Origin: Klenkia soli
GTDB taxonomy: Bacteria > Actinomycetota > Actinomycetes > Mycobacteriales > Geodermatophilaceae
NCBI RefSeq assembly: GCF_900103975.1
Contig: NZ_FNIR01000013.1
Coordinates: forward strand, 62,001-126,000
Direction of reading: 5' to 3'
DNA: 64,000 nt
The translations under genes and the position numbers were made by a program. Below are positions 10,331 through 26,781 of the stretch, one piece after another. Each line of letters starts with the position of its first letter. Within the stretch, counting starts at the first letter, position 1. The notes beneath the pieces were generated by a model that saw only the letters and a list, made by a program, of their open reading frames with translations, was not told the origin of the DNA and made no database searches.

Positions 10331-11812
10331 TCAGGCGTCGCCGCGGCGGACGACCCGCCCGGGGAGGGCGTCGAGCACGACCTCGCCGTCGCGCACCACC
10401 GGGGTGCCGGCGACGAGGACGTGCTGGAAGCCGCTGCTGGGTGCCAGCGCGGTGTAGGTGGCCCGGTCGGTCACGGTGGCCGGGTCGAACACCACCAGGT
10501 CGGCGTCGGCGCCGACCTGCACCCGGCCCTTGCGGCGCATCGCCGGGACGGCCGCCTCCAGCAGCTGGGCCGGGAGCAGGGAGGACCGGCGGAGGGCCTC
10601 GGTGAGGCCGAGGACCCCTCGCTCGCGGACCAGCCAGCGCAGCGTCCGCGCGTAGGACCCCGCGGTGCGCGGGTGGGTGACCGCGTCGGCCGGGGGTGGC
10701 CAGACGTCGGGCACGGCGGCGCCGCCGGGACCGACCAGCGGCATCGCGTCGGTGGCCACCGCGGTGTCGGGCAGCAGGAACGAGCGCTCGAGCAGGGCGA
10801 GGTCACCGGCGTCCTCCTCGTCGAGCATGTGCACCACGACCAGGCCGCCGGGGTCGGTGGCCCGGAGGTGGGTCAGCTGCGCGGCGTCGGCGATCCGCTC
10901 GCCGGTGGCCAGCCAGGTGATCGACGACGGGGTCAGCCGCATGCGGTGCAGCGCCTCGGGGGCCAGGAACGCCGCGCCGACCACCGTGGAGCCCGCGCCG
11001 TACGGGTAGGCCTCGGTGCTCACCCGTACGCCCTCGCCCCGGGCGGTCTCCACCGCGGCGGCGACCTCGTCGAGCATCCGGTTCGAGGTGGAGTTCACGT
11101 GGCACATGTGCATGTGCGCGCCGGTGCCGGCGGCCGCGGCGATGACCTCCAGCGCGCCCTCGAGAGAGGTCCCGGGCTCCTCGGTGGAGATGAACCGCGT
11201 GTGGGTGAAGGTGGGCACCCCGCGGCGGGCGGCCAGCCCGGCCAGCCGGAAGTACTCGGCGCGGCCGCTGTCGGGCGCGTAGCCGACCAGGCAGCCGATG
11301 CCCAGCGCACCCTCGTCGAGGGCGTCGTCGAGCAGGCCGAGGATGCGGTCGACCTCGGCGTCGGTGGCCGGACCCCGCCACCGGGGCCCGTTCTGGAACT
11401 GCCCGAACAGGTCGAGGCTGAGGTCGCCGTCCCCGGGCAACGGGACGCCGTCCAGCACGTGCATGCGCGCGTCGGTCCAGGCCGCGGAGAACCCGACGTT
11501 CACCGGACGGCCCTCGGCCTCGGCGCGTGCGCAGGCCAGCCCCACCGGCAGCGCCCCGGCCTCCAGCTCCAGGGCCGTGGTCACGCCGTCCATCGCCTGC
11601 AGGCGGAGACCGGTGAGCGACTGGGCGTGGCTGTGCAGGTCGACGAACCCCGCCGTGACCACCTGGCCCGACACGTCCCACACCTGCCGGCCCGGGGGCA
11701 CCTCCTCGCTCACCGCGGTGACGGTGCCCCCGGTGATGCCCACGGCCCGGACGCCGTCCAGGCCGGTCTCCGGGTCGACCACCCGGCCGCCGACCAGCAC
11801 CAGGTCGTGCAT
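10331..11812 (-). CDS. N-acyl-D-amino-acid deacylase (D-aminoacylase)-type amidohydrolase
   Basis: A 493-residue metal-dependent amidohydrolase. The N-terminal strand set (DLVLVGGRVVDPETGLDG) leads into GFVDLHSHAQS with the HxH metal ligands. Later metal/catalytic histidines are visible in FTHTRF and HMHMCHVNS, and the chain returns to the beta-sandwich at VGADADLVVFDPATV. This order matches the D-aminoacylase/N-acyl-D-glutamate deacylase group, which frees D-amino acids from N-acyl forms. The ATG overlaps the stop of the upstream fusion gene (ATGA). It lies across a divergent promoter from the peptide-import operon, supporting a D-amino-acid theme. Confidence 0.88.
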   Translation of the reverse strand: MHDLVLVGGRVVDPETGLDGVRAVGITGGTVTAVSEEVPPGRQVWDVSGQVVTAGFVDLHSHAQSLTGLRLQAMDGVTTALELEAGALPVGLACARAEAEGRPVNVGFSAAWTDARMHVLDGVPLPGDGDLSLDLFGQFQNGPRWRGPATDAEVDRILGLLDDALDEGALGIGCLVGYAPDSGRAEYFRLAGLAARRGVPTFTHTRFISTEEPGTSLEGALEVIAAAAGTGAHMHMCHVNSTSNRMLDEVAAAVETARGEGVRVSTEAYPYGAGSTVVGAAFLAPEALHRMRLTPSSITWLATGERIADAAQLTHLRATDPGGLVVVHMLDEEDAGDLALLERSFLLPDTAVATDAMPLVGPGGAAVPDVWPPPADAVTHPRTAGSYARTLRWLVRERGVLGLTEALRRSSLLPAQLLEAAVPAMRRKGRVQVGADADLVVFDPATVTDRATYTALAPSSGFQHVLVAGTPVVRDGEVVLDALPGRVVRRGDA

Positions 11813-14800
11813 CAGCCGACCTTGGGGTTGGCCCGCACCCCGTAGTGCACGTACTCGCTGCCGTCGGGCAGGGCGTAGAAGGTCACCGCCATCCAGCTCT
11901 CCTGGCCCGGGGGCTGGGCGCAGAACAGGCCGTCGGCGACCGCGTGCAGGGTCAGCTCCTCGGGGGAGTGGCCGGGGGCGTCGGCGAGCGGGCCGGTGGG
12001 CACCATGCGCAGCACCAGCCCGCCGTCGCGCTCGCTGACCTCGGTGCGCACCGAGCTGCGCTCGTAGGTGCCGGTCCACCGCGCGAGGTCGAGCTCGGGC
12101 GCGGGGTCGGCCGGCTGGATCTGGTCGGCCATCGTGACCCCGGCCAGCTCGGACACGACCTCGCCGACCAGCGCGCGGAACAGGTCGGCGGTGTGGCCGC
12201 CGTTGGTCAGCAGGACGACGACCAGCCCGGCGTCGGGCACGACCCGCAGGTAGGCGTTCTGCCCGAAGGTGGTGCCGTCGTGGCCGTAAAGCCGCTGGCC
12301 TTCCCAGCCGAAGCGGATCCAGCCCAGGCCCCAGGAGTCCGCGCCCAGGGTGTGGGTGTCGGGCAGCTGGGTCTGCTCGGCCTGCATGTCCGCGGCGGTG
12401 CTCCCCGACAGCAGCGGGGCGCCGCCGGTCAGGTGCGCCCGGGCGAAGGTGGTGACGTCGCGGGCCGAGGCGTTGATCAGCCCGGCCGGCCCGGCCGAGC
12501 GGGGCAGCAGGAAGGTGGTGACCGGCTCGAACGGCTGGTCGGGGCCCTCGCTCACGTGGCCGACCGCGACCCGGTGCAGGATCGCCTCCTCGGGCAGCGT
12601 CGAGGTGCGGGTCAGGCCCAGCGGCTCGACGACCCGCTCGCGCAGCACGGCGTCCCACGTCGTCCCGGTGAGCACCTCGACCACGCGGCCGGCCAGGCTG
12701 AACCCGGAGTTGCAGTAGGAGAAGGTCGCGCCCAGCGGGTGGTTCTGCTGGACCTCCGCCAAGGCGGCCACATACCTCTCGAGCACGTCGTCGCCGCGGC
12801 CGGTGTCGGTGAACACGTCGCCGTCGATGCCGCTGGTGTGGGTGAGCAGGTGCCGCATCGTCACCTGCTTCGTGACGTCCGGGTCGCCCAGCGCCAGGTC
12901 GGGCAGCACCTCGACCAGCGGGGCGTCGAGGTCCAGCTTCCCCTCCTCGACCAGCTGCATGACCAGGGTCGCCGTCCAGACCTTGGAGATCGAGCCGATC
13001 TGGAACACCGAGTCGGTGGTCACCTCGACGCCGGTGGCGGTGTTGAGCACGCCGGTGGCGGCCTCGACGAGCTCGTCGTCGGCGCCGTCACGGCCCAGCC
13101 GCAGGATCGCCAGGGTCGCCCCGGGCACCTGGTGGGCCGCGGCGAGGGAGTCCAGGCGCTGCTGCCAGTGCGCGCCGTCCAGCGGGGGAGTGGTCACGTG
13201 CTGCTCCGTCCAGTCGATGATCCGCCGGCTGAGGTCGGCCCGGTGGCTGGGCCGGCCGTCGACGACGAACAGGTGGGAGGCCCCCGGGTAGAGGACCAGC
13301 TCGGTGGGCACCCCGCGGCTGCGCAGGGCGGTGAACCACAGCTCGGCCTGCCCGGCCGGGCAGCGCTCGTCCGCGGCGCCGTGCACCACCAGCGTGGGGG
13401 TGGTGACCGCGCCGACCCGGGTCCACGGGTTGACCTCGGCCAGCGCGGCGCGGTCGGTCACCGGGTCGGGCCACTCCAGGCCGCCCAGCAGCGGGCCGAC
13501 GTCGGAGGTGCCCCACATGCCCGTGAGGTCGGCGACCACGCCGCCGGCCACGGCCGCGGCGAACCGGTCGGTGCGCCCGGTCAGCCAGCAGGTCAGGAAA
13601 CCGCCGTAGGAGTAGCCGGTCAGCGCCAGCCGGTCGGGGTCGGCGACGCCCTCGGCGACCAGGGCGTCCAGCGGCTCCAGCACGTCGCGCTCGTCGGCGA
13701 GCCCCCAGCGGCCGACGGCGGCGGTGTGGTGGTCGAGGCCGTAGCCGTCGCTGCCGCGGATGTCCAGCAGCAGCACCGACCAGCCCCGGCCGGCCAGCAC
13801 CTGGTGGTAGGGGTGGATCGCGTCGGCGGCCGGGGTCCAGGCGTTGTGCGGGCCGCCGTGCACGTCGACCAGCAGCGGGCCGGGGCCGGTCACGGCGGGG
13901 TCGCGCAGCAGCCAGCCGTGCACGGTGCGCCCGTCGGAGACGGTGAAGGTGCGCGCCTGCGGCGCGACGAGGGCCACGCCCGGCAGGGCGGCGGCGGTGT
14001 GCCGGGTCAGCCGCACCGGCGCACCCCCGGACAGCGGGACGACGGCCACCTCGCCGAAGGTGGTGGGGTCGGCCAGCACGACCGCGGCGACGTCGGCCCC
14101 GGCGGCCACCGCGAGGCCGGAGACCACGACGTCGTCCCCGCCGACCAGCCCCTCCGGCGCCCCGGAGCCGTCGACCGGGGCGGCCACGACGTGGGTGCAG
14201 CCGTGGTCGCGGATGCAGAACACGACCCGGCGACCGTCCGGGGTGAGCTGCGCCGGCCCGCCCGGGTAGCCGGGGCCGCCGGGCATGACGTTGCGGTCGA
14301 GCACCGCGGCCAGGTCGGTGACGCGGCCGCCGTCCAGCGGCACCCGGAGCAGCTGGGTGTGCCCGACCTCGACCCGCTGCTGCCCGCTCACCAGCAGGAC
14401 GTCGTCCGGGGCCCAGACGACCGGGCCGGCGACGCCCTCGGCCGGGCCCACCTGCTCGGGCTGCCCGCCCGTGACCGGCACGACGTGCACCGCGGAACGC
14501 CCGGTCAGGTCGGGGTCCGGGCCGGTGGGGGCGCCGAAGGCCAGCCGCCGGCCGTCGGGGGACCACGCGGGGGCGCCGACGTGCCGGTCGCCGGAGGTCA
14601 CCTGCCGCACCTCGCCGCTGGCCCGGTCGAGCACGTGCACCTGGCTGCGCACCTCGCCGAGGTGGCCCGCGCCGTCGGCCTTCCAGCCGAGCCGGGTGGT
14701 CACCAGCGGGGCGTGCTCGTCGGGGGTGCCGGCCGGGTGCACCGGGGCGGTGAAGGCCAGCGCGCCGCCGTCCGGGCGCCACACCGGGGCACCGGCCCCC

Positions 14801-15132
14801 AGGGGGAGGTCGGTGACCCGCTCGGGCTCGCCGCCGGTCATCGGCAGCAGGTGCAGCTGGGCGGGCGCCCCGTCGGCGGCCCGCAGGAACGCCAGCACCG
14901 CGCCGTCGGGGGAGAAGGTGGGCGCGGTGTCCGCCGGGCCGTGCGTCAGCGGGGTCGGCGCGGCCCACCCGTCGCCGTCGGCGCGGACGACCCACAGGCA
15001 GCGCCGGTCGACGTCGGCCCCGGTGTCGGTGGTGCGCAGGACGTAGACGACGGTGCGGCCGTCGGGGGCGATGGCCGGCTCCGCGGGCAGGGCGAACGCG
15101 GCCAGGTCGGCGAGCTGCAGCGGGCGGGCCAT
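11812..15132 (-). CDS. Fusion of S9 prolyl-oligopeptidase-type peptidase and class-C beta-lactamase-like serine hydrolase
   Basis: A single 1106-residue chain with two complete serine hydrolase modules. Residues ~1-400 are WD40/TolB-like repeats (recurrent SPDG, LTPDGRR). About 400-650 are the S9 catalytic domain: oxyanion HGGPHN, nucleophile Ser508 in GYSYGG, Asp in GAADERCP, His in GASHLF. About 665-1106 are a serine beta-lactamase/D-aminopeptidase-type domain: Ser714-Ile-Ser-Lys717 (SxxK), Tyr-Cys-Asn (YxN) and His-Asp-Gly (HxG). No signal peptide is evident, so it probably acts in the cytoplasm on imported peptides. The hydrolase half is clearly paralogous to the divergent gene at 15251. 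The ATG at 15132 has CACGAT 6 nt upstream (15144-15139). Confidence 0.9.
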   Translation of the reverse strand: MARPLQLADLAAFALPAEPAIAPDGRTVVYVLRTTDTGADVDRRCLWVVRADGDGWAAPTPLTHGPADTAPTFSPDGAVLAFLRAADGAPAQLHLLPMTGGEPERVTDLPLGAGAPVWRPDGGALAFTAPVHPAGTPDEHAPLVTTRLGWKADGAGHLGEVRSQVHVLDRASGEVRQVTSGDRHVGAPAWSPDGRRLAFGAPTGPDPDLTGRSAVHVVPVTGGQPEQVGPAEGVAGPVVWAPDDVLLVSGQQRVEVGHTQLLRVPLDGGRVTDLAAVLDRNVMPGGPGYPGGPAQLTPDGRRVVFCIRDHGCTHVVAAPVDGSGAPEGLVGGDDVVVSGLAVAAGADVAAVVLADPTTFGEVAVVPLSGGAPVRLTRHTAAALPGVALVAPQARTFTVSDGRTVHGWLLRDPAVTGPGPLLVDVHGGPHNAWTPAADAIHPYHQVLAGRGWSVLLLDIRGSDGYGLDHHTAAVGRWGLADERDVLEPLDALVAEGVADPDRLALTGYSYGGFLTCWLTGRTDRFAAAVAGGVVADLTGMWGTSDVGPLLGGLEWPDPVTDRAALAEVNPWTRVGAVTTPTLVVHGAADERCPAGQAELWFTALRSRGVPTELVLYPGASHLFVVDGRPSHRADLSRRIIDWTEQHVTTPPLDGAHWQQRLDSLAAAHQVPGATLAILRLGRDGADDELVEAATGVLNTATGVEVTTDSVFQIGSISKVWTATLVMQLVEEGKLDLDAPLVEVLPDLALGDPDVTKQVTMRHLLTHTSGIDGDVFTDTGRGDDVLERYVAALAEVQQNHPLGATFSYCNSGFSLAGRVVEVLTGTTWDAVLRERVVEPLGLTRTSTLPEEAILHRVAVGHVSEGPDQPFEPVTTFLLPRSAGPAGLINASARDVTTFARAHLTGGAPLLSGSTAADMQAEQTQLPDTHTLGADSWGLGWIRFGWEGQRLYGHDGTTFGQNAYLRVVPDAGLVVVLLTNGGHTADLFRALVGEVVSELAGVTMADQIQPADPAPELDLARWTGTYERSSVRTEVSERDGGLVLRMVPTGPLADAPGHSPEELTLHAVADGLFCAQPPGQESWMAVTFYALPDGSEYVHYGVRANPKVG

Positions 15133-15250
15133 GCCCGGATCGTGCCGCCGCGGTGCCGGTACTGGTTCGTCCGACACGACGAACGGGGTGCCGCCGGTTC
15201 GGCCGCGCGGACGAACGGCAGCTCGCCCGGCGCCCCTAGCGTCCACCGCC
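15133..15250. promoter_or_regulatory. Divergent promoter with GTTCGTC/GACGAAC inverted repeat
   Basis: The 118-bp gap serves both the fusion gene (-) and the stand-alone hydrolase (+). A perfect 7-bp inverted repeat occupies 15165-15171 and 15178-15184 (6-nt spacer). A third copy of GACGAAC lies at 15210-15216, 32 bp further on (about three helical turns). -10-like hexamers: CACGAT on the minus strand (15144-15139) and TAGCGT on the plus strand (15237-15242, 8 nt before the ATG). The repeat is a candidate operator controlling both directions, perhaps for the PucR protein at 25141. Confidence 0.45.
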
Positions 15251-16651
15251 ATGACGAGCGCGACGAGCACCACGGTGGAGCAGGTCGGGGCCTGGCTGGC
15301 CGACCGGCTGCCGGCCCTCCTGGCCGAGCACGACGTGCCGGCCGCAGCCGTCGCGGTGTCCGTGGGCGGCGAGGTGGTCGAGGCCGCCGCGGGGCTGCTC
15401 AGCCGCACCACCGGTGTCGAGGCCACGACCGACTCGGTGTTCCAGATCGGCTCGGTCACCAAGGTCTGGACGGCGACCCTGGTGATGCAGCTGGTCGACG
15501 AGGGCGCGGTCGACCTCGACGCCCCGGTGCGCCGGTACCTGCCCGACCTGCGGCTGGGCGACGAGTCCGCCGCCGCGGCGATCACCGTGCGGCAGCTGCT
15601 GGCGCACACCGCCGGCTTCGAGGGCGACGTGTTCACCGACACCGGCCGCGGCGACGACGCGCTGTCGACCTACCTCGGCGAGCTCGCCGGGGTCGCGCAG
15701 CTGTTCGCCCCCGGCGAGCTGTTCAGCTACAACAACGCCGGCTACTGCGTGCTCGGCCTGCTCGTCGAGGTGCTGCGCGGCAAGCCCTACGACCAGTGCC
15801 TCACCGACCACCTCATCACCCCGCTGGGCCTGACCACCGCCTCGCCGAGCCCCTACGAGGCGATCGTGCACCGGGTCGCCGTCGGCCACGTGACACCGGC
15901 CCCGGGCGCCGAGCAGGTGGCCGCACCGGTGTGGGCGATGGTCCGCTCGAACGCCCCGGCCGGGTCGATGCTGGCCATGTCGGCGCGCGACCTGGTCGGC
16001 TTCGGCCGGCTGCACCTGTCCGGCGGGGTTGCCCCCGACGGCACCCGGCTGCTGGCCGAGGCCACCGTCGCGGCCATGCGCGAGCCGCAGGTGCGGCTGC
16101 CCGAGCTGCGGGTGCTGGGCGACGCGTGGGGCCTGGGCTGGGAGCTGTTCGACGGCCCGGGCGGGGTGCACGGCCACGACGGCAACACCATCGGCCAGGC
16201 CTCGTTCCTGCGCCTGGTGCCCGAGCACGACCTGGCCGTCGCCCTGCTGACCAACGGCGGCAACCCCTACGCCCTGTACGCCGACGTCGTCGGGCACGTG
16301 CTGCGCGAGCTCGCCGGCCTCGAGCCCCGGGCCCTGCCCACCCCGCCGGCCGACCCCGCGCCGGTGGACCCCACCCGGTTCACCGGCACCTACGAGAGCC
16401 TCGTCTACGACCTCGTCGTCAGCGCCGACGAGCAGGAGCGCATCTGGCTGCAGATCGTGCCCAAGGACCCGCTGGTCGACCTGACCGACGGCCCCGAGCG
16501 CACCGAGCTGGTCGGCTTCGGCCCCGACGCGCTCATCCCGGTGCAGGGCCAGATGGGGCTGCACATCCCGCACGTCTTCCTCGGCGACGACGGCTCGGGC
16601 CGGGCCCGCTTCCTGCACCTGGGCCGCGCCGTGCGCCGTGCCGACGCCTGA
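15251..16651 (+). CDS. Class-C beta-lactamase/D-aminopeptidase-type serine hydrolase
   Basis: A 466-residue penicillin-recognising-fold hydrolase. Ser68-Val-Thr-Lys71 is the SxxK active site, SYNN provides the YxN motif, and GHDGN supplies the HxG motif. The C-terminal ~110 residues (from ARFTGTYESL) form the beta-barrel-like accessory domain found in D-aminopeptidases and related esterases. No signal peptide is visible. Long identical stretches with the C-terminal half of the neighbouring fusion (for example TDSVFQIGS, KVWTATLVMQLV, GDVFTDTGRGDD) show a local duplication. It is the first gene of the import operon, 57 nt before the binding protein gene. Confidence 0.9.
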   Translation: MTSATSTTVEQVGAWLADRLPALLAEHDVPAAAVAVSVGGEVVEAAAGLLSRTTGVEATTDSVFQIGSVTKVWTATLVMQLVDEGAVDLDAPVRRYLPDLRLGDESAAAAITVRQLLAHTAGFEGDVFTDTGRGDDALSTYLGELAGVAQLFAPGELFSYNNAGYCVLGLLVEVLRGKPYDQCLTDHLITPLGLTTASPSPYEAIVHRVAVGHVTPAPGAEQVAAPVWAMVRSNAPAGSMLAMSARDLVGFGRLHLSGGVAPDGTRLLAEATVAAMREPQVRLPELRVLGDAWGLGWELFDGPGGVHGHDGNTIGQASFLRLVPEHDLAVALLTNGGNPYALYADVVGHVLRELAGLEPRALPTPPADPAPVDPTRFTGTYESLVYDLVVSADEQERIWLQIVPKDPLVDLTDGPERTELVGFGPDALIPVQGQMGLHIPHVFLGDDGSGRARFLHLGRAVRRADA

Positions 16652-16708
16652 CCTGCCCCCGCACACCCCGCCCCGTCCAGCCCAGCCCCGCCCCGAGAGG
16701 ACCCCCGC

Positions 16709-18280
16709 ATGAGGCACGTCCGCACCGCCGCCGGACTCGGCGTCACCGCCCTCGCGCTCGCCGCTTGCGGCGGCGGCTCCGGGGGTGGTGGCGAGGCCGT
16801 CTCCGGCGGCACCTTCGTCTTCGCCGTCGCCGCCGACCCGGGCAACCTGGACCCCCAGGCGTCGGCGGCCAGCGGGCTGTTCCAGATCACCCATTTCGCC
16901 TACGACTCGCTGCTCGGCCTGGACGCCGACGGGGAGGTCGTCTCGCAGATGGCCACCGACTGGTCGGTGGACGGGTCGACGGTCACGCTCACGATGGACC
17001 CCGACGTCACCTGCTCCGACGGCACGCCGTTCACCGCCGAGGACGCCGCGGAGAACATCAACTACGTCGCCGACCCGGCCAACCAGAGCCCGTTCCTCGG
17101 GGTGTTCGTGCCCGACGGCGTGACCGCCACGGGCGCCGAGGACGGCACGGTCACCCTGACCCTCGCCGCGCCGGCGCCGTTCGTGCTCAACGGCCTCGCC
17201 GGGGTGCCGATGGTCTGCTCGGCCGGGCTGGCCGACCGCGACTCGCTCACCGACTCGACGCTGGGCACCGGTCCCTTCCAGCTCACCGAGGCCGTGCCGA
17301 ACGACCACTACACGTACACGGTGCGCGACGACTACACCTGGGGCCCGGACGGTGCGAGCACCAGCACCGAGGGGACCCCCGACCAGGTGGTGTTCCAGAT
17401 CGTGCCGAACGAGACCACCGCGGCCAACCAGCTGCTGTCCGGCGAGGTGAACGCCGCGCAGATCATCGGCCCGGACTTCGACCGGCTGGAGTCGGCGGGG
17501 CTGTTCTCCACCAGCGTCACCGCCGTCCTCGGCGAGCAGTGGTACAACCAGACCGCTGGCCGCCCGGCGTCCGACCCGGCCGTCCGGCTGGCCCTCACCC
17601 AGGCCGTGGACTTCGAGCAGGTCGCCAAGGTGCTCAGCGCCGACCGCGGTGGCCCCGGCACCAGCTTCGCCGCGTCGGCCCCCTCCGCGTGCGGCGGCGA
17701 CTCGGTCTCCGACGCGATGCCGGACGTCGACGCCGACGCCGCCGCCGCGACCCTCGACGCGGCCGGCTGGGTCGCCGGCGCCGACGGCACCCGGGCCAAG
17801 GGCGGCACGCCGCTGGCGATCACGTTCCTCTACGACACCGAGCTGGGTGCCAGCGGCTCGGCCGCCGCGGAGCTGGTCACCACGGCCTGGCAGGACCTGG
17901 GCGTGACGGTGGACGTGACCCCGCAGGACGAGACGGCGTCGATCAGCACGCTGTTCGGCTCGGGGGACTGGGACGCCGCCTGGGTGCAGCTGAACGTCAG
18001 CAGCCCCGACCAGGTGGTGCCGTTCGTCTCCGGCACCGTGGTGCCCGACGGCAACAACTTCGCGCACATCGCCAACCCCGACTACGACGCCCTCGTCGCG
18101 CAGGCCAGCACCATGGAGGGCACCGACGGCTGCGACACCTGGCTGCAGGCCGAGGCGGCGCTCGTGTCCTCCGCCGACGTCTTCCCCTTCGCCAACCAGG
18201 AGTCGACGTTCTTCGGCTCGGGCGCGGAGTTCGCGCTCGGCGACGGCCTCATCCCCACCAGCATCCGCATGCAGGGCTGA
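16709..18280 (+). CDS. Peptide/opine-type ABC transporter substrate-binding lipoprotein (family 5)
   Basis: A 523-residue extracellular solute-binding protein. The N-terminus MRHVRTAAGLG...ALALAAC ends in a lipobox with Cys20, so it is anchored to the outer face of the membrane. The SBP_bac_5 pattern begins FVFAVAADPGNLDPQ, continues through DSLLGLDADGEVV and the P-F-x-A-E-D-A region, and later contains FQIVPNETTAANQLLSGEVNA. Such proteins bind peptides, opines or similar amides for the permeases encoded next. A GAGAGGA ribosome site precedes the ATG. The downstream permease begins 4 nt after its stop. Confidence 0.93.
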   Translation: MRHVRTAAGLGVTALALAACGGGSGGGGEAVSGGTFVFAVAADPGNLDPQASAASGLFQITHFAYDSLLGLDADGEVVSQMATDWSVDGSTVTLTMDPDVTCSDGTPFTAEDAAENINYVADPANQSPFLGVFVPDGVTATGAEDGTVTLTLAAPAPFVLNGLAGVPMVCSAGLADRDSLTDSTLGTGPFQLTEAVPNDHYTYTVRDDYTWGPDGASTSTEGTPDQVVFQIVPNETTAANQLLSGEVNAAQIIGPDFDRLESAGLFSTSVTAVLGEQWYNQTAGRPASDPAVRLALTQAVDFEQVAKVLSADRGGPGTSFAASAPSACGGDSVSDAMPDVDADAAAATLDAAGWVAGADGTRAKGGTPLAITFLYDTELGASGSAAAELVTTAWQDLGVTVDVTPQDETASISTLFGSGDWDAAWVQLNVSSPDQVVPFVSGTVVPDGNNFAHIANPDYDALVAQASTMEGTDGCDTWLQAEAALVSSADVFPFANQESTFFGSGAEFALGDGLIPTSIRMQG

Positions 18281-18284: not shown

Positions 18285-19286
18285 GTGACCGCCGTCGCCC
18301 CGGCCTCCGCCGTCGGGACGCCGTCCCGACGGATGGCCGACAACCCGTGGCTGGCCTTCGCGGTGCGCCGCACCGGCCGGCTGCTGGTCTCGCTGTGGGT
18401 GCTGGTGACGGCGTCGTTCCTGATCCTGCACCTCATCCCGGGCGACCCGGTGCGGGCGGCGCTGGGGCCGACCGCACCGGCCGCCCTGGTCGCCGCCCGC
18501 CGGGCGTCGCTCGGGCTGGACCGGCCCCTGTGGGAGCAGTACGTGGACTACCTGCGCGGGGTGCTGACCGGCGACCTGGGCTCGTCGCTGGGCTCCTCGC
18601 TGCCGGTCTCGCGGATCATCGGGCAGCGCCTGCCGGCCACCCTGGAGCTGGCGCTGCTGGCCTTCGTGGTGGTGGTCGCGCTCGCCGTGCCCATCGGGGC
18701 CGGGATGGGCGTGCTCACCCGGGGTGGGCGGCGGCGCGGCGGCGAGCTGGCGTTCTCCTCCGCGAGCACGGTCGTCGGCGCGGTGCCGGACTTCGTGCTC
18801 GGCGTCGGGTTCGTCTACGTCTTCAGCGTGACGCTGGGCTGGCTCCCGGTGGCCGGGCGCACCGGGCCGTCGTCCTACGTGCTGCCGGTGCTCGCCCTGG
18901 CCGTCGGCCCGGCGGCGGCGCTGGCCCGCATCGTGCGGGTGGAGATGCTCACCGCCCTGCGCAGCGACCACGTGCGGACGGCGCGGGCCAAGCGGCTGCC
19001 GGCCTGGCAGGTCAACCTCGGCCACGCGCTCCCGCACGCGCTGACGGCCTCGATCACCCTCGGCGGGCTGCTGCTCTCGGCGCTGGTGGCCGGCACCGTG
19101 CTGGTGGAGAACGTCTTCTCCTGGCCGGGCCTGGGCTCGACCATCGTCTCCTCGATCCTGGAGAAGGACTACCCCGTCGTGCAGGGCGTCGTGCTCGTGT
19201 ACGGCGCCGGAGTGCTGCTGGTGAACCTGGCCGTCGACGTCGTCCTGTCCCTGCTCGACCCGCGCTCCGTCATCCGGGAGAGCTGA
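18285..19286 (+). CDS. ABC transporter permease, DppB/OppB type
   Basis: A 333-residue inner-membrane permease. A ~25-residue cytoplasmic leader precedes TM1 (LVSLWVLVTASFLILHLIPGDPV), followed by the conserved PGDPV.A.LG and LGLDRPL..QY..YL..VL.GDLG.S block typical of DppB. About six membrane segments follow. The EAA-like loop is in ARIVRVEMLTALRSDHVRTARAK, and the C-terminus holds SWPGLGS. It starts with GTG 4 nt after the binding-protein stop and overlaps the next gene at TGATG. Confidence 0.92.
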   Translation: MTAVAPASAVGTPSRRMADNPWLAFAVRRTGRLLVSLWVLVTASFLILHLIPGDPVRAALGPTAPAALVAARRASLGLDRPLWEQYVDYLRGVLTGDLGSSLGSSLPVSRIIGQRLPATLELALLAFVVVVALAVPIGAGMGVLTRGGRRRGGELAFSSASTVVGAVPDFVLGVGFVYVFSVTLGWLPVAGRTGPSSYVLPVLALAVGPAAALARIVRVEMLTALRSDHVRTARAKRLPAWQVNLGHALPHALTASITLGGLLLSALVAGTVLVENVFSWPGLGSTIVSSILEKDYPVVQGVVLVYGAGVLLVNLAVDVVLSLLDPRSVIRES

Positions 19287-21250
19287 TGACCACCATGGCG
19301 CCCGGGGTGCTCGTCCCCGTCGCCGACCGACCGGCCGCCCGTGGCCGGTGGGGGTCGGTGCTGCGCACGCCGGTCGGCATCGGCGCCGGGGTGCTGCTGG
19401 CCGCGGTGCTGGTGCTCGCCGTCGTCGCGCCCGTCGTGTGGGGGGCGCAGGCCGAGGCCGTGGACACCGACGCGATCCTGCAGGGGTCCTCGGCCGCGCA
19501 CCTGGTGGGCACCGACAACCTGGGCCGTGACCTCTTCGCCCGCACCATGGTGGCCACCGGCCTCTCGGTGCGGCTGGCGCTGACCGCCACCGTGCTCACC
19601 GTGGTGCTGGGCATGCTGCTGGGTGCGGCGCCGCTGCTGCTGGGCCGCCGCGCCGGCCGGCTGGTCACCGCGGGCATCGACATCGCCGTCGCGTTCCCCG
19701 GCCTGCTGCTGGCGCTGTTCTTCGCCATCGTGTTCGGGGTCGGCGCCACGGGCGCGGTGCTGGCCATCGGCGTCGCCGGGGCGCCGGTGTTCGCCCGGCT
19801 CACCTCGACGCTGGCCGCCGGGGTCGCGTCGCGGGACTACGTGCTGGCCGCGCGGGTCGCCGGGGTCGGCCGGTTCCGCGTGCTGCTGCGCCACGTGTTC
19901 CCCAACATCGCCGAGCCGCTGGTCGTCAACGCGACCATCGGCGCCGGCGGTGCGCTGCTGGCCTTCGCCGGGTTGTCGTTCCTCGGGCTGGGGGTGCAGG
20001 CGCCGGACTACGACTGGGGCCGGCTGCTGCAGGACGGCCTGTCGGGCATCTACCGGCACCCGGAGGCCGCCCTGGCCCCCGGCCTGGCCATCGTCGTCGC
20101 CGGGCTGGCGTTCAACCTGTTCGGCGAGGCCGTGGCCAAGGGCATCGGGCTCACCTCGGCCGCCGGGGTCGTGCGCGGCCGCCGCGCCGCCGGGGCCGAC
20201 CGGCAGCCGGCCACCGAGCGCGGCCCGGTGGCCGGGCAACCCGTGCTCGACGTCGAGGACCTCTCGGTGGCGTTCCCGGGTGCCGGTGGCCCGGTCCGGC
20301 CGGTGCGCGGGGTGACCTTCTCGGTGGGGCGCGGCGAGGCCGTGGGCGTGGTGGGGGAGTCGGGGTCGGGCAAGTCGCTCACCGCGCTGGCCGTCGCCCG
20401 CCTGGTCGAGGCGCCGGGCGAGGTGACCGCGGCCCGGCTGGACTTCCGGGGCACCGACCTGCGCACCGGCGGCGAGCGGGCGCACCGCCGGCTGCTGGGC
20501 ACCGGGTTCGCGATGGTCTTCCAGGACCCGATGACCTCGCTGAACCCCACCCGGCGGATCGGCCACCAGCTGGCCGAGGGCGCCCGCCGGCACCAGGGCC
20601 TATCCCGGGCGGCCGGGCTGGCCCGCGCGGTGGACCGGCTGCGCAGCGTGCGGGTGCCCGAACCCGAGCGCCGGGCCCGCCAGTACCCGCACGAGTTCTC
20701 CGGGGGCATGCGCCAGCGGGCGATGATCGGCATGGGCCTCATGGGGGAGCCCGCGCTGATCGTGGCCGACGAGCCGACCACCGCCCTCGACGTCACCGTG
20801 CAGCGCTCGGTGCTCGACCTGCTCGCCGCGATCCGCCGCTCCGACGACGTCGCCCTGCTGCTGATCAGCCACGACGTGGCGGTCGTGCGCGAGGTGTGCG
20901 ACCGGGTGCTGGTGATGTACGCCGGGCGCATCGTGGAGGACCTGCCCGCCGACCGGCTCGCCGCGGGCCGGCACCCCTACACCCGGGCCCTCGTGGCCAC
21001 CGTCCCGGACATGGCCGTCGACCTCGACGCACCCCTGCCGGTGATCCCCGGCCGGCCGGTCGACCCGTCGGCGCAGCCTCCCGGGTGCGCCTACGCCGCG
21101 CGCTGCCCGCTGGCGTCGGACCGCTGCCGGGCGGAGGACCCACCGCTGGCGGCCGACGCGTCGGGGAGCCGGGTGGCCTGCTGGCACGCCGACGAGGTCG
21201 CCGACGGGGCGCTCGCCGCCGCCGGTGCGGCACGGGAGGAGGTCGCGTGA
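19286..21250 (+). CDS. Fused ABC permease-ATPase (DppC-DppD in one chain)
   Basis: A 654-residue protein joins two components normally encoded separately. Residues ~1-300 are a DppC-type permease (TM1 near 25-50, HLVGTDNLGRDLFARTM, EAA loop ASRDYVLAARVAGVG, FAGLSFLGLGVQAPDYDWG). A ~20-residue Ala/Arg linker leads to a DppD-type ATPase with Walker A GESGSGKS (Lys363), Q-loop FQDPMTSLNP, signature FSGGMRQRA, Walker B LIVADEPTTALD and switch His in SHDVAV. The oligopeptide C-terminal cysteine motif (GCAYAARCPLASDRC) closes it. No stop or frameshift interrupts the join. It overlaps neighbours at both ends. Confidence 0.92.
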   Translation: MTTMAPGVLVPVADRPAARGRWGSVLRTPVGIGAGVLLAAVLVLAVVAPVVWGAQAEAVDTDAILQGSSAAHLVGTDNLGRDLFARTMVATGLSVRLALTATVLTVVLGMLLGAAPLLLGRRAGRLVTAGIDIAVAFPGLLLALFFAIVFGVGATGAVLAIGVAGAPVFARLTSTLAAGVASRDYVLAARVAGVGRFRVLLRHVFPNIAEPLVVNATIGAGGALLAFAGLSFLGLGVQAPDYDWGRLLQDGLSGIYRHPEAALAPGLAIVVAGLAFNLFGEAVAKGIGLTSAAGVVRGRRAAGADRQPATERGPVAGQPVLDVEDLSVAFPGAGGPVRPVRGVTFSVGRGEAVGVVGESGSGKSLTALAVARLVEAPGEVTAARLDFRGTDLRTGGERAHRRLLGTGFAMVFQDPMTSLNPTRRIGHQLAEGARRHQGLSRAAGLARAVDRLRSVRVPEPERRARQYPHEFSGGMRQRAMIGMGLMGEPALIVADEPTTALDVTVQRSVLDLLAAIRRSDDVALLLISHDVAVVREVCDRVLVMYAGRIVEDLPADRLAAGRHPYTRALVATVPDMAVDLDAPLPVIPGRPVDPSAQPPGCAYAARCPLASDRCRAEDPPLAADASGSRVACWHADEVADGALAAAGAAREEVA

Positions 21251-21990
21251 GCGAGCTGGTGTTCGACGACGTGACGGTGCGGTACGGCAACGCCCGCACC
21301 GGGCACACCGCGGTGGACGGCGTGCGCCTGGTCGTGCCCGACGGTGCGGTGGTCGGCCTGGTCGGCGAGTCGGGGTCGGGCAAGTCGACCCTGGCCAAGG
21401 CTGCGGTCGGGCTGGCACCGGTGACCGGTGGGGCGGTGCTGCTGGACGGCGTGCCGGTGCCCACCCGCCCCGGTCGCCGTCCCGTGCAGATGGTGTTCCA
21501 GGACCCGTACTCCTCGCTGGACCCGCGGATGACGATCGGCGACAGCATCGCCGAGGCCGTGCCGCGCGGCACCCCGCGGGCGCAGCGCCGGGCCGACGTG
21601 CTCCGGTTGCTGGAGCTGGTCGACCTGGACCCGGCCCGGGCCCGCGCCCACCCCGCCCAGCTGTCGGGCGGGCAGCGGCAGCGCGTGGCCGTCGCGCGGG
21701 CCCTGGCCGCCCGGCCCGACGTGGTGATCGCCGACGAGATCACCTCGGCGCTCGACGTGTCGATCCAGGGCACGGTGCTCAACCTGGTGCGCCGGCTGCA
21801 GCGCGAGCTGGGCACCTCGATGCTGTTCATCTCGCACAACCTGGCCGTGGTGCGCTACGTCGCCAGCACCATCGCGGTGATGCGCGAGGGCCGCATCGTC
21901 GAGCAGGGCCCGGCCGAGCAGGTGCTCGGCGACCCGGCGCACGAGTACACCCGCGAGCTGCTGGCCGCCGTGCCCGGGGCGGTCCGGTGA
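21247..21990 (+). CDS. ABC transporter ATP-binding protein, DppF/OppF type
   Basis: A 247-residue second ATPase for the importer. Walker A is GESGSGKST, Q-loop FQDPYSSLDP, signature LSGGQRQRV, Walker B VVIADEITSALD and switch His in SHNLAV. It is shorter than most DppF proteins because it lacks the cysteine-rich C-terminal extension, which here is supplied only by the fused partner. The GTG overlaps the stop of the fusion gene (GTGA), and its own stop overlaps the M20 gene. Confidence 0.93.
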   Translation: MSELVFDDVTVRYGNARTGHTAVDGVRLVVPDGAVVGLVGESGSGKSTLAKAAVGLAPVTGGAVLLDGVPVPTRPGRRPVQMVFQDPYSSLDPRMTIGDSIAEAVPRGTPRAQRRADVLRLLELVDLDPARARAHPAQLSGGQRQRVAVARALAARPDVVIADEITSALDVSIQGTVLNLVRRLQRELGTSMLFISHNLAVVRYVASTIAVMREGRIVEQGPAEQVLGDPAHEYTRELLAAVPGAVR

Positions 21991-23123
21991 CCGAGCTCCC
22001 GGCCGACGTGCTGGCCGACATCCACGAGCTGGTCTCCTGCGAGTCGCCCTCGGACGACCTGGCGGCCGTGGCCCGCAGCGCCGACGTCGTCGCCCGGGTC
22101 GGCACCCGCCGGCTGGGGTGCGAGCCCGAGCGCATCGTGCTCGAGGGCCGCACCCACCTGCGCTGGCGCCTGGGGGAGGGTCCGCCACGGGTGCTGGTGC
22201 TGGGTCACCACGACACCGTCTGGCCCCTCGGGTCGCTGGCCACCCACCCGTCCACGGTCGTCGACGGCGTGCTGCGCGGCCCGGGCAGCGTGGACATGAA
22301 GGCCGGCCTGGTCGTCGCGTTCGCCGCGGTGGCCGCGCTCGAGGACCCGGCCGGGGTGACCGTGCTGGTGACCGGCGACGAGGAGCTGGGCTCGCCGTCC
22401 TCCCGGACGCTGATCGAGGACGAGGCCCGCGGCTGCGCGGCCGCGCTCGTGCTGGAGGCCGCCGCCGACGGCGGGGCCCTCAAGACCACCCGCAAGGGCG
22501 TCTCGCTGTACCGGGTCGCGGTCACCGGCCGCGCCGCGCACGCCGGGCTCGCGCCCGCCGACGGCGTCAACGCCGGCGTCGAGCTGGCCCACCAGGTGCT
22601 CGCGCTGACCGCCCTCGGCGACCCCGACCTCGGGACGACGGTCACCCCGACCGCGTCGGCGGCGGGCACCGTCACCAACACCGTGCCGGCGCAGGCATGG
22701 GTCGCCGTCGACGTGCGCGTGCCCGACGCCGCCGAGCAGGACCGGGTCGACGCGGCGGTGCGGGCGCTGCGCCCCGTGCTGCCCGGCGCCCGCGTGGAGG
22801 TGACCGGCGGACCGAACCGACCGCCGATGGAGGCCGCCGCCGCGCTGCTCGACCGGGCCCGTGCGGTCGCCCGCGGGCTCGGGCTGCCCGAGCTGCGCGG
22901 TGCCTCGGTCGGGGGCGCCTCCGACGGGAACTTCACCGCCGGCGTCGGGGTGCCCACGCTCGACGGGCTGGGCGCGGTGGGCGGGGGCGCGCACGCCGAC
23001 GACGAGCACGTGCTGGTCGCCGAGCTCGCGCCGCGGCTGGCGCTGCTCACCGCGCTGCTGGCCGACCTGCTCGCCGACGTCGCGGACGAGCCGGCCGGGC
23101 CGGCCGACGGGGGCCGGCGGTGA
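21987..23123 (+). CDS. M20-family zinc amidohydrolase (carboxypeptidase/desuccinylase type)
   Basis: A 378-residue binuclear metallohydrolase. Metal and catalytic residues can be placed: HHDTVW (His, Asp), GSVDMKAG (bridging Asp), DEELGS (general-base Glu plus metal Glu), and the terminal metal His in GGGAHADDEHV. The inserted dimerisation domain begins near KTTRKGVSLYRVAVTGRAAHAG. It resembles glutamate carboxypeptidase and ArgE/DapE-like deacylases. In the known Geobacillus D-amino-acid conversion pathway an M20 enzyme removes the N-succinyl group from the L-isomer, and the next two genes encode the other two activities, so that role is the best guess here. Confidence 0.9.
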   Translation: MTELPADVLADIHELVSCESPSDDLAAVARSADVVARVGTRRLGCEPERIVLEGRTHLRWRLGEGPPRVLVLGHHDTVWPLGSLATHPSTVVDGVLRGPGSVDMKAGLVVAFAAVAALEDPAGVTVLVTGDEELGSPSSRTLIEDEARGCAAALVLEAAADGGALKTTRKGVSLYRVAVTGRAAHAGLAPADGVNAGVELAHQVLALTALGDPDLGTTVTPTASAAGTVTNTVPAQAWVAVDVRVPDAAEQDRVDAAVRALRPVLPGARVEVTGGPNRPPMEAAAALLDRARAVARGLGLPELRGASVGGASDGNFTAGVGVPTLDGLGAVGGGAHADDEHVLVAELAPRLALLTALLADLLADVADEPAGPADGGRR

Positions 23124-24001
23124 CCACGTGGACCGTCGCCGACGACGCCCAGCTGGCCGCCGACGCCGCCGGGCGCGCGGCGGGGGTCGCGGTCCGGACG
23201 ATCACGGCGGTGCCGGACCTGGCCGCGGTCGCCGGCCTGCTGGGCGCCATCTGGCAACGGGCCGACAGCCCGCCGTTGAGCACCGAGCTGCTGCGGGCGC
23301 TGGCGACGGCGGGCAGCTACGTGGCCGGCGCGTACGACGGGGACGACCTGGTGGGGGCCTGCGTGGGCTTCTTCGCCGAACCGGCCGCCGGGTCGCTGCA
23401 CAGCCACATCGCCGGGGTCTCCGGGGCCGTGCGCGGTCGCAGCGTCGGGTTCGCGCTCAAGGTGCACCAGCGCGCCTGGGCGCTGGCCCGCGGGGTCGGC
23501 GAGATCACCTGGACCTACGACCCGCTGGTCGCCCGCAACGCCTGGTTCAACACCGGCAAGCTCGGCGCCGCCGCGGTGGCCTACCTGCCCGACCACTACG
23601 GCGGCATGCAGGACGCGCTCAACGCCGGCGACGAGACCGACCGGTTGCTGGTCCGCTGGGACCTCGCGGCGCCGCAGGTCGTGGCGGCCTGCCGCGGCGG
23701 GGCCCCGGGTGCCGCCGTCCCGCCCGGCGCGGCGGTGGCGCTGGGCTGCTCGCCCGACGGCGCCCCGGTGCCCGGTCGCACCGACGCACCGGTGCTGCTG
23801 GTGGCCGTGCCCCGCGACGTCGAGGCGCTGCGCCGCACCGACCCGGCGCTGGCCGCGCGGTGGCGCAGCGCCGTCCGGTCGGTGCTGCACCCGGTGCTGG
23901 CCGACGGCGGGCGGATCACCGGCTTCGACCGCGCCGGGCGGTACGTGCTGCACCAGCGCGGCGCAGAGCACACGACAGGGGAGAGGCAACCGTGGAGCTG
24001 A
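23120..24001 (+). CDS. GNAT-superfamily acyltransferase (COG3375 type), candidate amino-acid N-succinyltransferase
   Basis: A 293-residue protein. The GNAT-like part includes VAGLLGAIWQRAD, GAYDGDDLVGACVGFF (strands), SLHSHIAGVSGAVRGRSVGFALK (acyl-CoA binding motif A equivalent) and ITWTYDPLVARNAWFNTGKLGA. This is the pattern of the predicted acetyltransferase group COG3375. A C-terminal ~100-residue half (VLLVAVPRDVEALRR) also follows that family. In Geobacillus kaustophilus a protein of this sort N-succinylates D-amino acids beside NSAR and an M20 desuccinylase; the same three-gene set is seen here. It overlaps M20 by 4 bp and the racemase gene by 10 bp. Confidence 0.82.
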   Translation: MTTWTVADDAQLAADAAGRAAGVAVRTITAVPDLAAVAGLLGAIWQRADSPPLSTELLRALATAGSYVAGAYDGDDLVGACVGFFAEPAAGSLHSHIAGVSGAVRGRSVGFALKVHQRAWALARGVGEITWTYDPLVARNAWFNTGKLGAAAVAYLPDHYGGMQDALNAGDETDRLLVRWDLAAPQVVAACRGGAPGAAVPPGAAVALGCSPDGAPVPGRTDAPVLLVAVPRDVEALRRTDPALAARWRSAVRSVLHPVLADGGRITGFDRAGRYVLHQRGAEHTTGERQPWS

Positions 24002-25113
24002 TCGACTCGACCGTCGAGGGGGTCGAACTGCGGCGGGTCGGGCTGCCCCTGGTGTCGCCGTTCCGCACCTCGTTCGGCACCCAGACCCACCGCGACGTCC
24101 TGCTGGTCCGGGTGGTGACCGCCGACGCCGAGGGCTGGGGCGAGTGCGTGGCCATGGCCGACCCGCTGTACTCCGAGGAGTACGTGGACGGCGCGGTCGA
24201 CGTGCTGCGCCGCTTCCTGGTGCCCCGGCTGGCCGCGGCCGGGCGGATCGACGCCGCGGCGGTCGCCGAGGTGCTGGCCCCCGTGCACGGGCACCGGATG
24301 GCCAAGGCCGCCCTTGAGCTCGCGGTGCTCGACGCGCAGCTGCGGGCCGCCGGCACCCCGCTGTCCCGGCACCTCGGCGCCGTGCACGACCGGGTGCCGT
24401 GCGGGGTGTCGGTCGGGATCATGGACTCGGTGCCGGCGCTGCTGGACGCGGTGGGGGAGTACCTCGACCAGGGCTACGTGCGGATCAAGCTCAAGATCGA
24501 ACCCGGCTGGGACGTCGAACCGGTGCGCGCGGTGCGCGAGCGCTTCGGCGACGACGTGCTGCTGCAGGTCGACGCCAACACCGCCTACACCCTCGCCGAC
24601 GCCCGGCACCTGGCCCGGCTGGACCCCTTCGACCTGCTGCTGGTCGAGCAGCCGCTGCCCGAGGACGACGTGCTGGGGCACGCCGCGCTGGCCCGGCAGA
24701 TCCGCACCCCGGTCTGCCTGGACGAGTCGATCACCTCCGCCCGGGCCGCGGCCGAGGCGATCACCCTGGGCGCCTGCTCGATCGTGAACGTCAAGCCCGG
24801 CCGGGTCGGTGGGTACCTGGAGGCCCGGCGGATCCACGACGTCTGCGCCGCGCACGGGGTGCCGGTCTGGTGCGGCGGGATGCTGGAGACCGGGATCGGC
24901 CGGGCGGCGAACGTGGCGCTGGCGGCGCTGCCCGGGTTCACGCTCCCCGGGGACACCTCGGCGTCGGACCGCTACTACCGCACCGACGTCACCGACCCGT
25001 TCGTGCTCGACGGCGGCCACCTCGGCGTGCCCACCGGGCCCGGCATCGGCGTCGTCCCGGTGCCCGAGGTGCTCGAGGACGTGACCACCTGGCGCGAGTG
25101 GCTGCCGGTGTGA
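23992..25113 (+). CDS. N-succinylamino acid racemase / o-succinylbenzoate synthase-type enolase superfamily enzyme
   Basis: A 373-residue enolase-superfamily protein of the MenC2/NSAR group. Key residues align with the characterised Amycolatopsis enzyme at a constant offset of 5: Lys166-x-Lys168 (KLK), Asp194 (VDAN), Glu219 (VEQP), Asp244 (LDES) and Lys268 (NVKPGRVGG). Enzymes of this group racemise N-acylamino acids or make o-succinylbenzoate for menaquinone. No other menaquinone genes are nearby, whereas a GNAT, an M20 hydrolase and a peptide importer are fused upstream, so racemisation is favoured. A strong GGGGAGAGG ribosome site inside the end of the preceding gene supports GTG 23992. 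Confidence 0.9.
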   Translation: MELIDSTVEGVELRRVGLPLVSPFRTSFGTQTHRDVLLVRVVTADAEGWGECVAMADPLYSEEYVDGAVDVLRRFLVPRLAAAGRIDAAAVAEVLAPVHGHRMAKAALELAVLDAQLRAAGTPLSRHLGAVHDRVPCGVSVGIMDSVPALLDAVGEYLDQGYVRIKLKIEPGWDVEPVRAVRERFGDDVLLQVDANTAYTLADARHLARLDPFDLLLVEQPLPEDDVLGHAALARQIRTPVCLDESITSARAAAEAITLGACSIVNVKPGRVGGYLEARRIHDVCAAHGVPVWCGGMLETGIGRAANVALAALPGFTLPGDTSASDRYYRTDVTDPFVLDGGHLGVPTGPGIGVVPVPEVLEDVTTWREWLPV

Positions 25114-25127
25114 ACCGGACGGATCAG

Positions 25128-25133: not shown

Positions 25134-25140
25134 CGACCCG

Positions 25141-26781
25141 GTGACGGGAGCTCCGGCAGGTCTGCGCCGGGTCCTCGACGACCTGGGCACGACGCTGCTG
25201 GACCTGCTGCACGGCGACCCCGACGCCGTCCCGCGGCTGGGCGGGGTGGCCATCCACGACCCCATCGACGAGCCCGAGCTGCCCCCGGCCGCGCTGGTGC
25301 TGGGCGTGGGCGTCGGCGGAGCGGCGGCGACCATCACCTTGCTGACCCAGCTCGGCCGCCGCGGTGCGGCCGGGCTGGTGCTGCGGGCGCCGGTGACGGT
25401 GACCCCGGCGGTGCTGGCCGCGGCCCGGGAGTCCGGCGTGGCGCTGCTGGGGCTGACCCGCGGGGCGACCTGGGCGCAGCTGGCGGCCATGCTCCGGGTG
25501 CTGCTGGCCGAGGGCGACGTCGGCGCGCAGACCGCCGAGTCGCTGGGCGGGCTGCCCTCGGGCGATCTGTTCGCGCTGGCCAACGCCGTGGCCGCGCTGG
25601 TCGACGCGCCGATCACCATCGAGGACCGCAGCAACCGCGTGCTCGCGTTCTCCGGCCGGCAGGACGAGGCCGACCCCGGACGCATCCAGACCGTGCTGGG
25701 GCTGCAGGTGCCCGAGGTCTACTCCCGGGTGCTCACCGAGCGCGGGGTGTTCCGCGAGCTGTACCGCTCCACCGGGCCGGTCCTGGTCGAGCCGGTGACC
25801 CCGCTGGACGGCGCCGGTGCGCTGCCCCGCGCGGCCATCGCGGTGCGGGCCGGTGACGAGGTGCTCGGCTCGATCTGGGCGGTGCTCCGCGACGGCCTGA
25901 GCCCCGACCGGGCCCGCGCCCTCGGTGAGGCCGCCACCCTGGTCGCCCTGCACATGCTGCGGGTGCGGGCCGGCGCCGACGTGCAGCGCCGGCTGCAGGC
26001 CGACCTGGTCTCCACGGCGCTGGAGGGGGGCGCGGGCGCGCGGGAGGCGCTGCACCGCCTGGGGCTGGCCGACCGCTCGGTGGTGGTGCTGGCCCTGGCG
26101 GCGCTGGACCCCGCCGCCGGGGTCGACGCCGCCAGCGACGCCGGGTCGGCCAACGACCGCCAGCGGCTGGCCGACGCGTTCGGGGTGCACCTGTCCGCCG
26201 TCCACCCCCGGTCGGCCACCGCGCTGGTCGGCCACGCCGTCTACGGGCTGGTGCCGGTCACCGGCGAGGACGCCGACGCCCGGGCCGTGCGGATCGCCAC
26301 CGACTTCCTCGACCGCATCGGGCCGCGCATCCCCGCCGTCGTCGGGATCGGCCCGGCCGGCCGCGACGTCGCCGGCCTGGCCGCCGCCCGGGTGGCCGCC
26401 GACCGCGCGCTGCGGGTGCTGCGGGTGCGCGCCGGTGCGGCGGGAGGCGGTGCGGTGCGGGTGGCCCGGGCCGACGACGTCCACGTCGAGGGGCTGCTGC
26501 TCGAGCTGCACGACCTGGCCGAGGCCCGGGGTGACCGGCCGGCCGGGCCGGTGGCCCGGCTGGGGGAGTACGACGCCGCGCACGGGGCGCAGCTGGTGCC
26601 CACGCTGCGGGCCTGGCTGGACGCCTTCGGCGACGTCCCGGCGGCCGCCGCGGCGCTGTACGTGCACCCGAACACGTTCCGCTACCGCCTGCGCCGGGTC
26701 GCCGAGGTCGGCGGCATCGACCTGGGCGACCCCGACGTCCGCTTCGCCGCGATGGTGCAGCTGCGCCTGCTGGACCGCTGA
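25141..26781 (+). CDS. PucR-family transcriptional regulator
   Basis: A 546-residue regulator. An N-terminal PucR-type sensory region (about 1-130, with VLGVGVGG and LRAPVTVTPAVLAAARESGVALLGL) is followed by a GAF-like middle (about 150-270) and a GGDEF-like remnant domain. The C-terminal HTH_30 helix-turn-helix spans about 485-545: DVPAAAAALYVHPNTFRYRLRRVAEV. Relatives control purine, amino-acid and amide catabolism in response to the substrate. Its position 27 nt after the racemase gene makes it the likely controller of the D-amino-acid operon. Confidence 0.88.
   Translation: MTGAPAGLRRVLDDLGTTLLDLLHGDPDAVPRLGGVAIHDPIDEPELPPAALVLGVGVGGAAATITLLTQLGRRGAAGLVLRAPVTVTPAVLAAARESGVALLGLTRGATWAQLAAMLRVLLAEGDVGAQTAESLGGLPSGDLFALANAVAALVDAPITIEDRSNRVLAFSGRQDEADPGRIQTVLGLQVPEVYSRVLTERGVFRELYRSTGPVLVEPVTPLDGAGALPRAAIAVRAGDEVLGSIWAVLRDGLSPDRARALGEAATLVALHMLRVRAGADVQRRLQADLVSTALEGGAGAREALHRLGLADRSVVVLALAALDPAAGVDAASDAGSANDRQRLADAFGVHLSAVHPRSATALVGHAVYGLVPVTGEDADARAVRIATDFLDRIGPRIPAVVGIGPAGRDVAGLAAARVAADRALRVLRVRAGAAGGGAVRVARADDVHVEGLLLELHDLAEARGDRPAGPVARLGEYDAAHGAQLVPTLRAWLDAFGDVPAAAAALYVHPNTFRYRLRRVAEVGGIDLGDPDVRFAAMVQLRLLDR

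Follow-up and report, generated by a model that had tools for sequence, protein, structure and literature searches.

A candidate PucR-controlled gene cluster joining peptide import and serine hydrolases to an N-succinylamino acid racemase route in Klenkia soli and other actinomycetes

Results

The window analysed here, a stretch of 64,000 nucleotides (nt) from the actinomycete Klenkia soli, holds within positions 10331-26781 two divergent gene runs on its map of open reading frames (ORFs), which together form a candidate block for the use of compounds with D-amino acid residues. The genome comprises 4,758,105 bases in 25 contigs, and the GC content of the window is 72-80% in 2-kb steps, in keeping with a high-GC actinomycete. 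Gene classes were called by Pfam and NCBIfam profiles, and start codons were picked from homology and spacing. The minus-strand run consists of a gene for an amidohydrolase resembling N-acyl-D-amino acid deacylases (10331..11812, 493 amino acids (aa); NF006560 above cut-off) and, overlapping it by 1 nt, a single ORF of 1106 aa (11812..15132) in which an S9 peptidase is fused to an S12 serine hydrolase (Pfam Peptidase_S9 and Beta-lactamase). The plus-strand run opens with a stand-alone S12 hydrolase (15251..16651, 466 aa), identified by Pfam Beta-lactamase and by PDB matches, and continues with an ATP-binding cassette (ABC) importer made up of a family-5 solute-binding protein (16709..18280; SBP_bac_5), permease 1 (18285..19286; BPD_transp_1), permease 2 fused to ATPase 1 in one ORF of 654 aa (19286..21250; BPD_transp_1, ABC_tran and oligo_HPY) and ATPase 2 (21247..21990; ABC_tran). 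Then follow an M20 hydrolase, the proposed N-succinyl-L-amino acid desuccinylase (21987..23123; Peptidase_M20), a GNAT protein of a conserved family, the proposed D-amino acid N-succinyltransferase (23120..24001, 293 aa), a predicted N-succinylamino acid racemase (NSAR) of the NSAR/o-succinylbenzoate synthase (OSBS) subfamily (23992..25113, 373 aa; TIGR01928 above cut-off) and, after a gap of 27 nt, a PucR-type regulator (25141..26781, 546 aa; HTH_30 and GGDEF_2) that is conserved beside the NSAR gene.

An original prediction, made from the sequence of this stretch alone, had listed these gene classes as a complete candidate D-amino acid scavenging pathway. Every class that it named was recovered by Pfam and NCBIfam profiles, or by predicted fold for the GNAT protein, and the importer was found with its two permease domains, two ATPase domains and binding protein; the S9 peptidase and one of the S12 modules proved to be one protein, and permease 2 and ATPase 1 likewise proved to be fused. 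The predicted tight spacing from the binding protein through the racemase was confirmed by the coordinates of every plus-strand junction, with 4 nt between the end of the binding-protein gene at 18280 and the start of permease 1 at 18285, and with end/start positions of 19286/19286, 21250/21247, 21990/21987, 23123/23120 and 24001/23992 thereafter. NCBIfam assigns the importer to the dipeptide/oligopeptide type, and the N-terminus of its binding protein is lipoprotein-like, a lipobox-like stretch (LALAAC) being readable in the sequence. The permease/ATPase fusion is likewise annotated as a permease/ATP-binding protein in the Streptomyces plasmid copy of the cluster described below.

The best PDB match of the racemase was the Amycolatopsis N-acylamino acid racemase 1sja, which aligned over the full length with an E-value of 5.6e-183. 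In this alignment 270 of 364 positions (74%) are identical, including K163, D189, E214, D239, K263 and R266 (1sja numbering), of which we take K163 and K263 to be the catalytic lysines and D189, E214 and D239 to be the acidic metal ligands, with R266 alongside. A canonical actinobacterial MenC is encoded elsewhere in the genome, at C17:533732-534652 (PRK02901, 419 bits), adjoining MenD at C17:532368-533711, and MenB was detected above cut-off on contig C15. TIGR01928 scored the window enzyme at 304 bits and the C17 MenC gene at 42 bits, and the Pfam and NCBIfam profiles picked up no men gene within the block. The window enzyme is neither men-linked nor the sole OSBS of its genome, as another MenC lies beside MenD. 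Because this separate canonical MenC adjoins MenD and because the TIGR01928 scores contrast so strongly, a menaquinone function of the window racemase is unlikely, and the possibility raised in the original prediction, that the enolase is only an OSBS, loses probability for the same reason. The enzyme is probably an N-succinylamino acid racemase of the NSAR/OSBS subfamily, with racemisation as its predicted activity. In the records of two Streptomyces plasmid loci (L157 and L158), the NSAR is annotated as menC with a menaquinone Gene Ontology term. Streptomyces is held to make menaquinone via the futalosine route, which would make the menC label on those copies more doubtful still.

The two partners of the racemase were characterised by fold and by profile. 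The GNAT protein matched no Pfam or NCBIfam profile at the thresholds used, and comparison with PDB sequences gave nothing convincing either (best E 0.12). Its structure was predicted from five sequences with a predicted local distance difference test (pLDDT) score of 77.6, and a Foldseek search of this model against the PDB returned 96 matches at E <=0.001. The 50 Foldseek matches listed were all GNAT-type by title or known identity and spanned 158-219 alignment columns of the 293 residues, somewhat more than half of the protein, and the modelled fold places the protein in the GNAT superfamily. The M20 profile was closest to carboxypeptidase G2 (1cg2, E 3.9e-48), an enzyme that removes L-glutamate from an N-acyl link. 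The M20-GNAT-NSAR trio is thus present as predicted, the three genes being adjacent in the window and linked in relatives. N-succinylation of D-aromatic amino acids by a GNAT enzyme is reported in a review (PMC8762209), whose reference list includes Sakai et al. 2006, on the Geobacillus kaustophilus pathway discussed below.

In the S9-S12 fusion, the S9 residues S508, D588 and H620, which we take to be the catalytic triad, and the S12 residues S714, K717, Y806, N808 and H951, presumably the S12 motif residues, were invariant in 9/9 aligned sequences, so that the motifs SxxK (S714..K717), YxN (Y806..N808) and H/K-x-G (H951-D-G953) are all kept in the nine fusions. The S9 part matched 8wt1 and the acyl-peptide hydrolase 5yzm in the PDB, and the S12 part matched IS11 (7spn), 6ksu, Ulm16 and the S12 peptidase 3wwx; its relatives include a D-alanyl-D-alanine carboxypeptidase, an alkaline D-peptidase and, lower down, a D-amino acid amidase. 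By sequence, the S12 part shares the fold of D-acting S12 enzymes (4y7p, 3wwx, R61 1cef and the amidase 2dns) with E-values of 1e-12 to 1e-27; the predicted structure of this domain (pLDDT 61.8) was too poor for use. Unlike those D-acting peptidases, the hydrolases here showed no obvious signal peptide by eye and by a simple hydropathy scan, and one S12 copy is fused behind an S9 peptidase. Because no obvious signal peptide was seen, the S12 and S9-S12 hydrolases are placed, provisionally, in the cytoplasm.

Conservation was surveyed first within the family, in 96 genomes of 12 genera. The GNAT gene was present in 17 of the 96 genomes, in 6/12 genera and in 4/9 congeners (own genome counted), and 16 GNAT loci other than our own were retrieved. 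M20, GNAT and NSAR occurred together in 15/16 of these loci, one locus (L041) having neither M20 nor NSAR, and PucR was found in 13/16; the S9 part was present in 12/16, in 8 of them as a fusion with S12 and in the other 4 by itself. In the class, GNAT was detected at E <=1e-10 in 85/296 genomes and 36/115 genera. Class loci were defined as the best 80 non-own GNAT matches, down to 186.7 bits, with weaker and fragment rows excluded; several of the stretches end at contig ends, so the class counts lean low. NSAR lay nearby in 62 of these 80 loci, M20 in 51, both in 38 and neither in 5. S9 or S12 occurred anywhere in the stretch in 38/80 and as a same-ORF S9-S12 fusion in 24/80, an importer co-directional with GNAT at >=55% identity in 23/80 and PucR in 33/80. 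The trio was accompanied by the fusion in 23/80 loci, by the fusion and the importer in 21/80 and by PucR as well in 19/80. M20 without NSAR was observed in 13/80 loci (L094, L095, L096, L098, L118 and others), which may mark a related pathway that uses a different epimerase or does without one.

The reverse test gave a sharper linkage: all 25 full-length S9-S12 fusions found in the 296 genomes (own included, E <=1e-100), spread over five families by genome labels, lie 1.2-8.0 kb from a GNAT gene. In Jidongwangia harbinensis (L005), S9-S12, M20, GNAT, NSAR and PucR stand in a row, and no importer was found in the 20.6 kb examined. In Streptomyces sp. SYP-A7193, a linear plasmid carries ten collinear genes whose products are 46-77% identical to the window proteins, in the order S12 serine hydrolase, binding protein, permease, permease/ATPase, ATPase, fusion, M20, GNAT, 'menC' and helix-turn-helix (HTH) regulator; the fusion is annotated there as 'serine hydrolase'. 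The fusion query matched 12 plasmid records (E <=1e-100), 10 of them over >=80% of its length. Several transposases surround the operon copy on one plasmid (L158), one of them separating the S12 genes from the binding-protein gene. The conservation of the gene set in other genomes points to a grouping beyond chance. The conserved neighbourhoods in the family, in the class and on the plasmid uphold the predicted tie of the trio to an importer and hydrolases, and the proposed synteny search, for the trio beside such importers, succeeded both in the 21 class loci that also carry the fusion and on the Streptomyces plasmid. For the same reason, the description of the Klenkia soli cluster as unusually self-contained did not hold, much the same set being found elsewhere.

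The nearest PDB entry to the deacylase-like amidohydrolase, the N-acyl-D-glutamate deacylase 3gip, is a full-length but distant relative (E 1.4e-30) in which the HxH motif is aligned and one His region is ambiguous in the alignment; the Cys of the 3gip NCG stretch, presumably a metal ligand, is replaced by the Ala two residues after the Glu in LELEAG. At >=50% identity this gene occurred in only 5/80 class loci and was therefore dropped as a core member of the cluster; it looks accessory.

The divergent promoter contains TTCGTCCGACACGACGAA at 15166-15183, an 18-bp palindrome that is the sole exact TTCGTC-N6-GACGAA of the genome and a putative PucR operator, and the five genomes aligned across this promoter all keep its two arms unchanged. 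A degenerate second palindrome follows at 15198..15215, its arms carrying one mismatch; its own pattern, with one mismatch allowed, gave 5 sites vs 4 for the reversed control and taken alone is no better than the control. In the 16 family and 80 class loci (1.85 Mb), the exact palindrome was found at 12 sites, three first-order resamplings giving 1, 0 and 0, and all 12 sites lie upstream of an S9, S12 or pucR gene. One-mismatch palindromes numbered 52 in these loci vs 7, 3 and 7 after resampling, and 31 in the own genome vs 2 in the reversed control; the analysis relies on the exact sites because coding-like palindromes inflate the one-mismatch counts.

A stricter form, TTCGTCSGNNCSGACGAA, which the window's own palindrome does not fit, was found at 12 sites in 10 of the 96 family genomes (reversed control, 0), and 10 of the 12 sites, in 8 genomes, stand at cluster genes. 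A stricter site was present in 8/17 GNAT-bearing vs 2/79 other genomes (Fisher p 6.8e-6, uncorrected for genome relatedness). The two remaining sites (genomes G005 and G052; L155 at 9460 and L156 at 3786) lie in stretches with no query genes, in genomes without a GNAT match, and reflect either chance or a different PucR regulon. In loci L152-L154, from three genomes of a different genus, a separate divergent unit is made up of the S12/deacylase pair and the S12/importer run, with the palindrome between these two arms; it lies ~2-6 kb away from the NSAR unit, on the side where PucR stands. As the palindrome is common to both, the S12/importer unit and the NSAR unit are regarded as one regulon. 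Since sites lie directly upstream of pucR, we infer PucR to be the protein predicted to act at the palindrome; its conserved position and the shared palindrome agree with the dedicated PucR regulator that had been proposed. Downstream of the block, with no evident link to it, lie an aldo/keto reductase gene (28822-29961) and a pyridine nucleotide-disulphide oxidoreductase gene (30039-31382).

Discussion

The gene content, the kinship of the racemase, the GNAT fold, the conserved linkage and the shared palindrome were observed, and on this basis we consider it reasonably probable that the cluster is a PucR-controlled catabolic regulon for D-residue compounds that feeds an NSAR-based D-to-L route, with its enzyme activities predicted. 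In this pathway, the lipoprotein binding protein and the Dpp/Opp-type importer would take up short D-residue peptides or acyl-amides, from which the apparently cytoplasmic S12 and S9-S12 serine hydrolases, assisted in this lineage by the N-acyl-D-amino acid deacylase, would release the D-amino acid. The GNAT protein would then N-succinylate the D-amino acid from succinyl-CoA, NSAR would convert the N-succinyl-D to the N-succinyl-L form, and M20 would release the L-amino acid and so draw the sequence one way, while PucR would sense a pathway compound and act at TTCGTC-N6-GACGAA sites. Measured against the original prediction, the trio, its link to import and hydrolysis and the dedicated regulator stand, while the unusual self-containment falls away and the deacylase is reduced to an accessory part.

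Geobacillus kaustophilus is said to convert D- to L-amino acids irreversibly with an NSAR, a GNAT succinyltransferase and an M20 desuccinylase. The window encodes these three enzyme classes, and the same one-way route is proposed here; unlike in that pathway, the trio of the window is accompanied by PucR, a peptide importer, a stand-alone S12 hydrolase and the S9-S12 fusion. The trio itself is thus already known, and its attachment to the importer, the S12 hydrolase, the fusion and the PucR palindrome may perhaps be new; no publication naming this operon was found in a literature search outside whose scope most subscription papers lay.

Several observations weigh against the proposed regulon. 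Esterases and class C beta-lactamases are likewise among the PDB relatives of the S12 part, and we know of no function for IS11, its best match. On the substrate side, D-peptides or N-acyl-D-amino acids are the presumed imported compounds, and the importer could carry others; if the deacylase accepted N-succinyl-D-amino acids, it might counter the GNAT step. In the class, NSAR occurred without M20 in 24/80 loci (some cut by contig ends) and was not near GNAT in 18/80, and neither S9 nor S12 was present in 42/80, GNAT and NSAR often standing without an importer or S9/S12. The one control on linkage was the reverse fusion test. Finally, neither of the two Streptomyces loci showed the exact palindrome, and most class loci lack it, so that the operator is either diverged or restricted to some lineages.

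Among other explanations, degradation of N-acyl-amino acids or acyl-amides survives best, although we regard it as unlikely. The S9 and S12 proteins would then serve as esterases or amidases, and both enantiomers would be cleared by NSAR together with a D-specific deacylase and an M20 enzyme specific for the L form. This could fit the deacylase-like gene within the operon, the esterases among the S12 relatives and, as described in PMC7431475, the acceptance of several N-substituents by NSAR enzymes and their pairing with L- or D-acylases in synthesis. An acyl-adding GNAT would be needless in such a pathway, yet NSAR lies near GNAT in most class loci; the importer belongs to the dipeptide/oligopeptide type, and few class loci carry the deacylase. 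Defence or cell-wall turnover, in which the hydrolases would inactivate peptide antibiotics with D-residues or trim the peptides of peptidoglycan, the step to L-amino acids being secondary, is less probable again: the affinities of the S12 enzymes with the D-alanyl-D-alanine carboxypeptidase and alkaline D-peptidase and the plasmid copies speak for it, whereas the hydrolases lack an obvious signal peptide by eye and simple hydropathy, the transporter is an importer rather than an exporter, and NSAR assays, as tabulated in PMC8142540, mostly concern hydrophobic or aromatic N-acyl-amino acids, not D-Ala or D-Glu. That the enolase is the OSBS of menaquinone synthesis amid unrelated neighbours, as the name of TIGR01928, which it passes, and the menC annotation of the Streptomyces copies might suggest, is hardly credible beside a canonical MenC adjoining MenD, a block in which no men gene was seen and the linkage of the enolase to GNAT and M20.

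A bolder extension of the proposed D-to-L regulon, which we hold to be possible but doubtful, is that it is widespread, partly plasmid-borne and serves in eating heterochiral peptides, including non-ribosomal peptide antibiotics, with the fusion as a signature two-headed peptidase cutting around D-residues and PucR binding TTCGTC-N6-GACGAA.

What NSAR enzymes, many of which carry the label menC, do in nature is a long-standing question for the study of enzyme evolution. The conserved gene set would supply uptake and hydrolysis before succinylation, and, with a signature fusion and a candidate operator, would make the role of NSAR directly testable. This reading would also correct the menaquinone mis-annotation present in both Streptomyces plasmid records examined.

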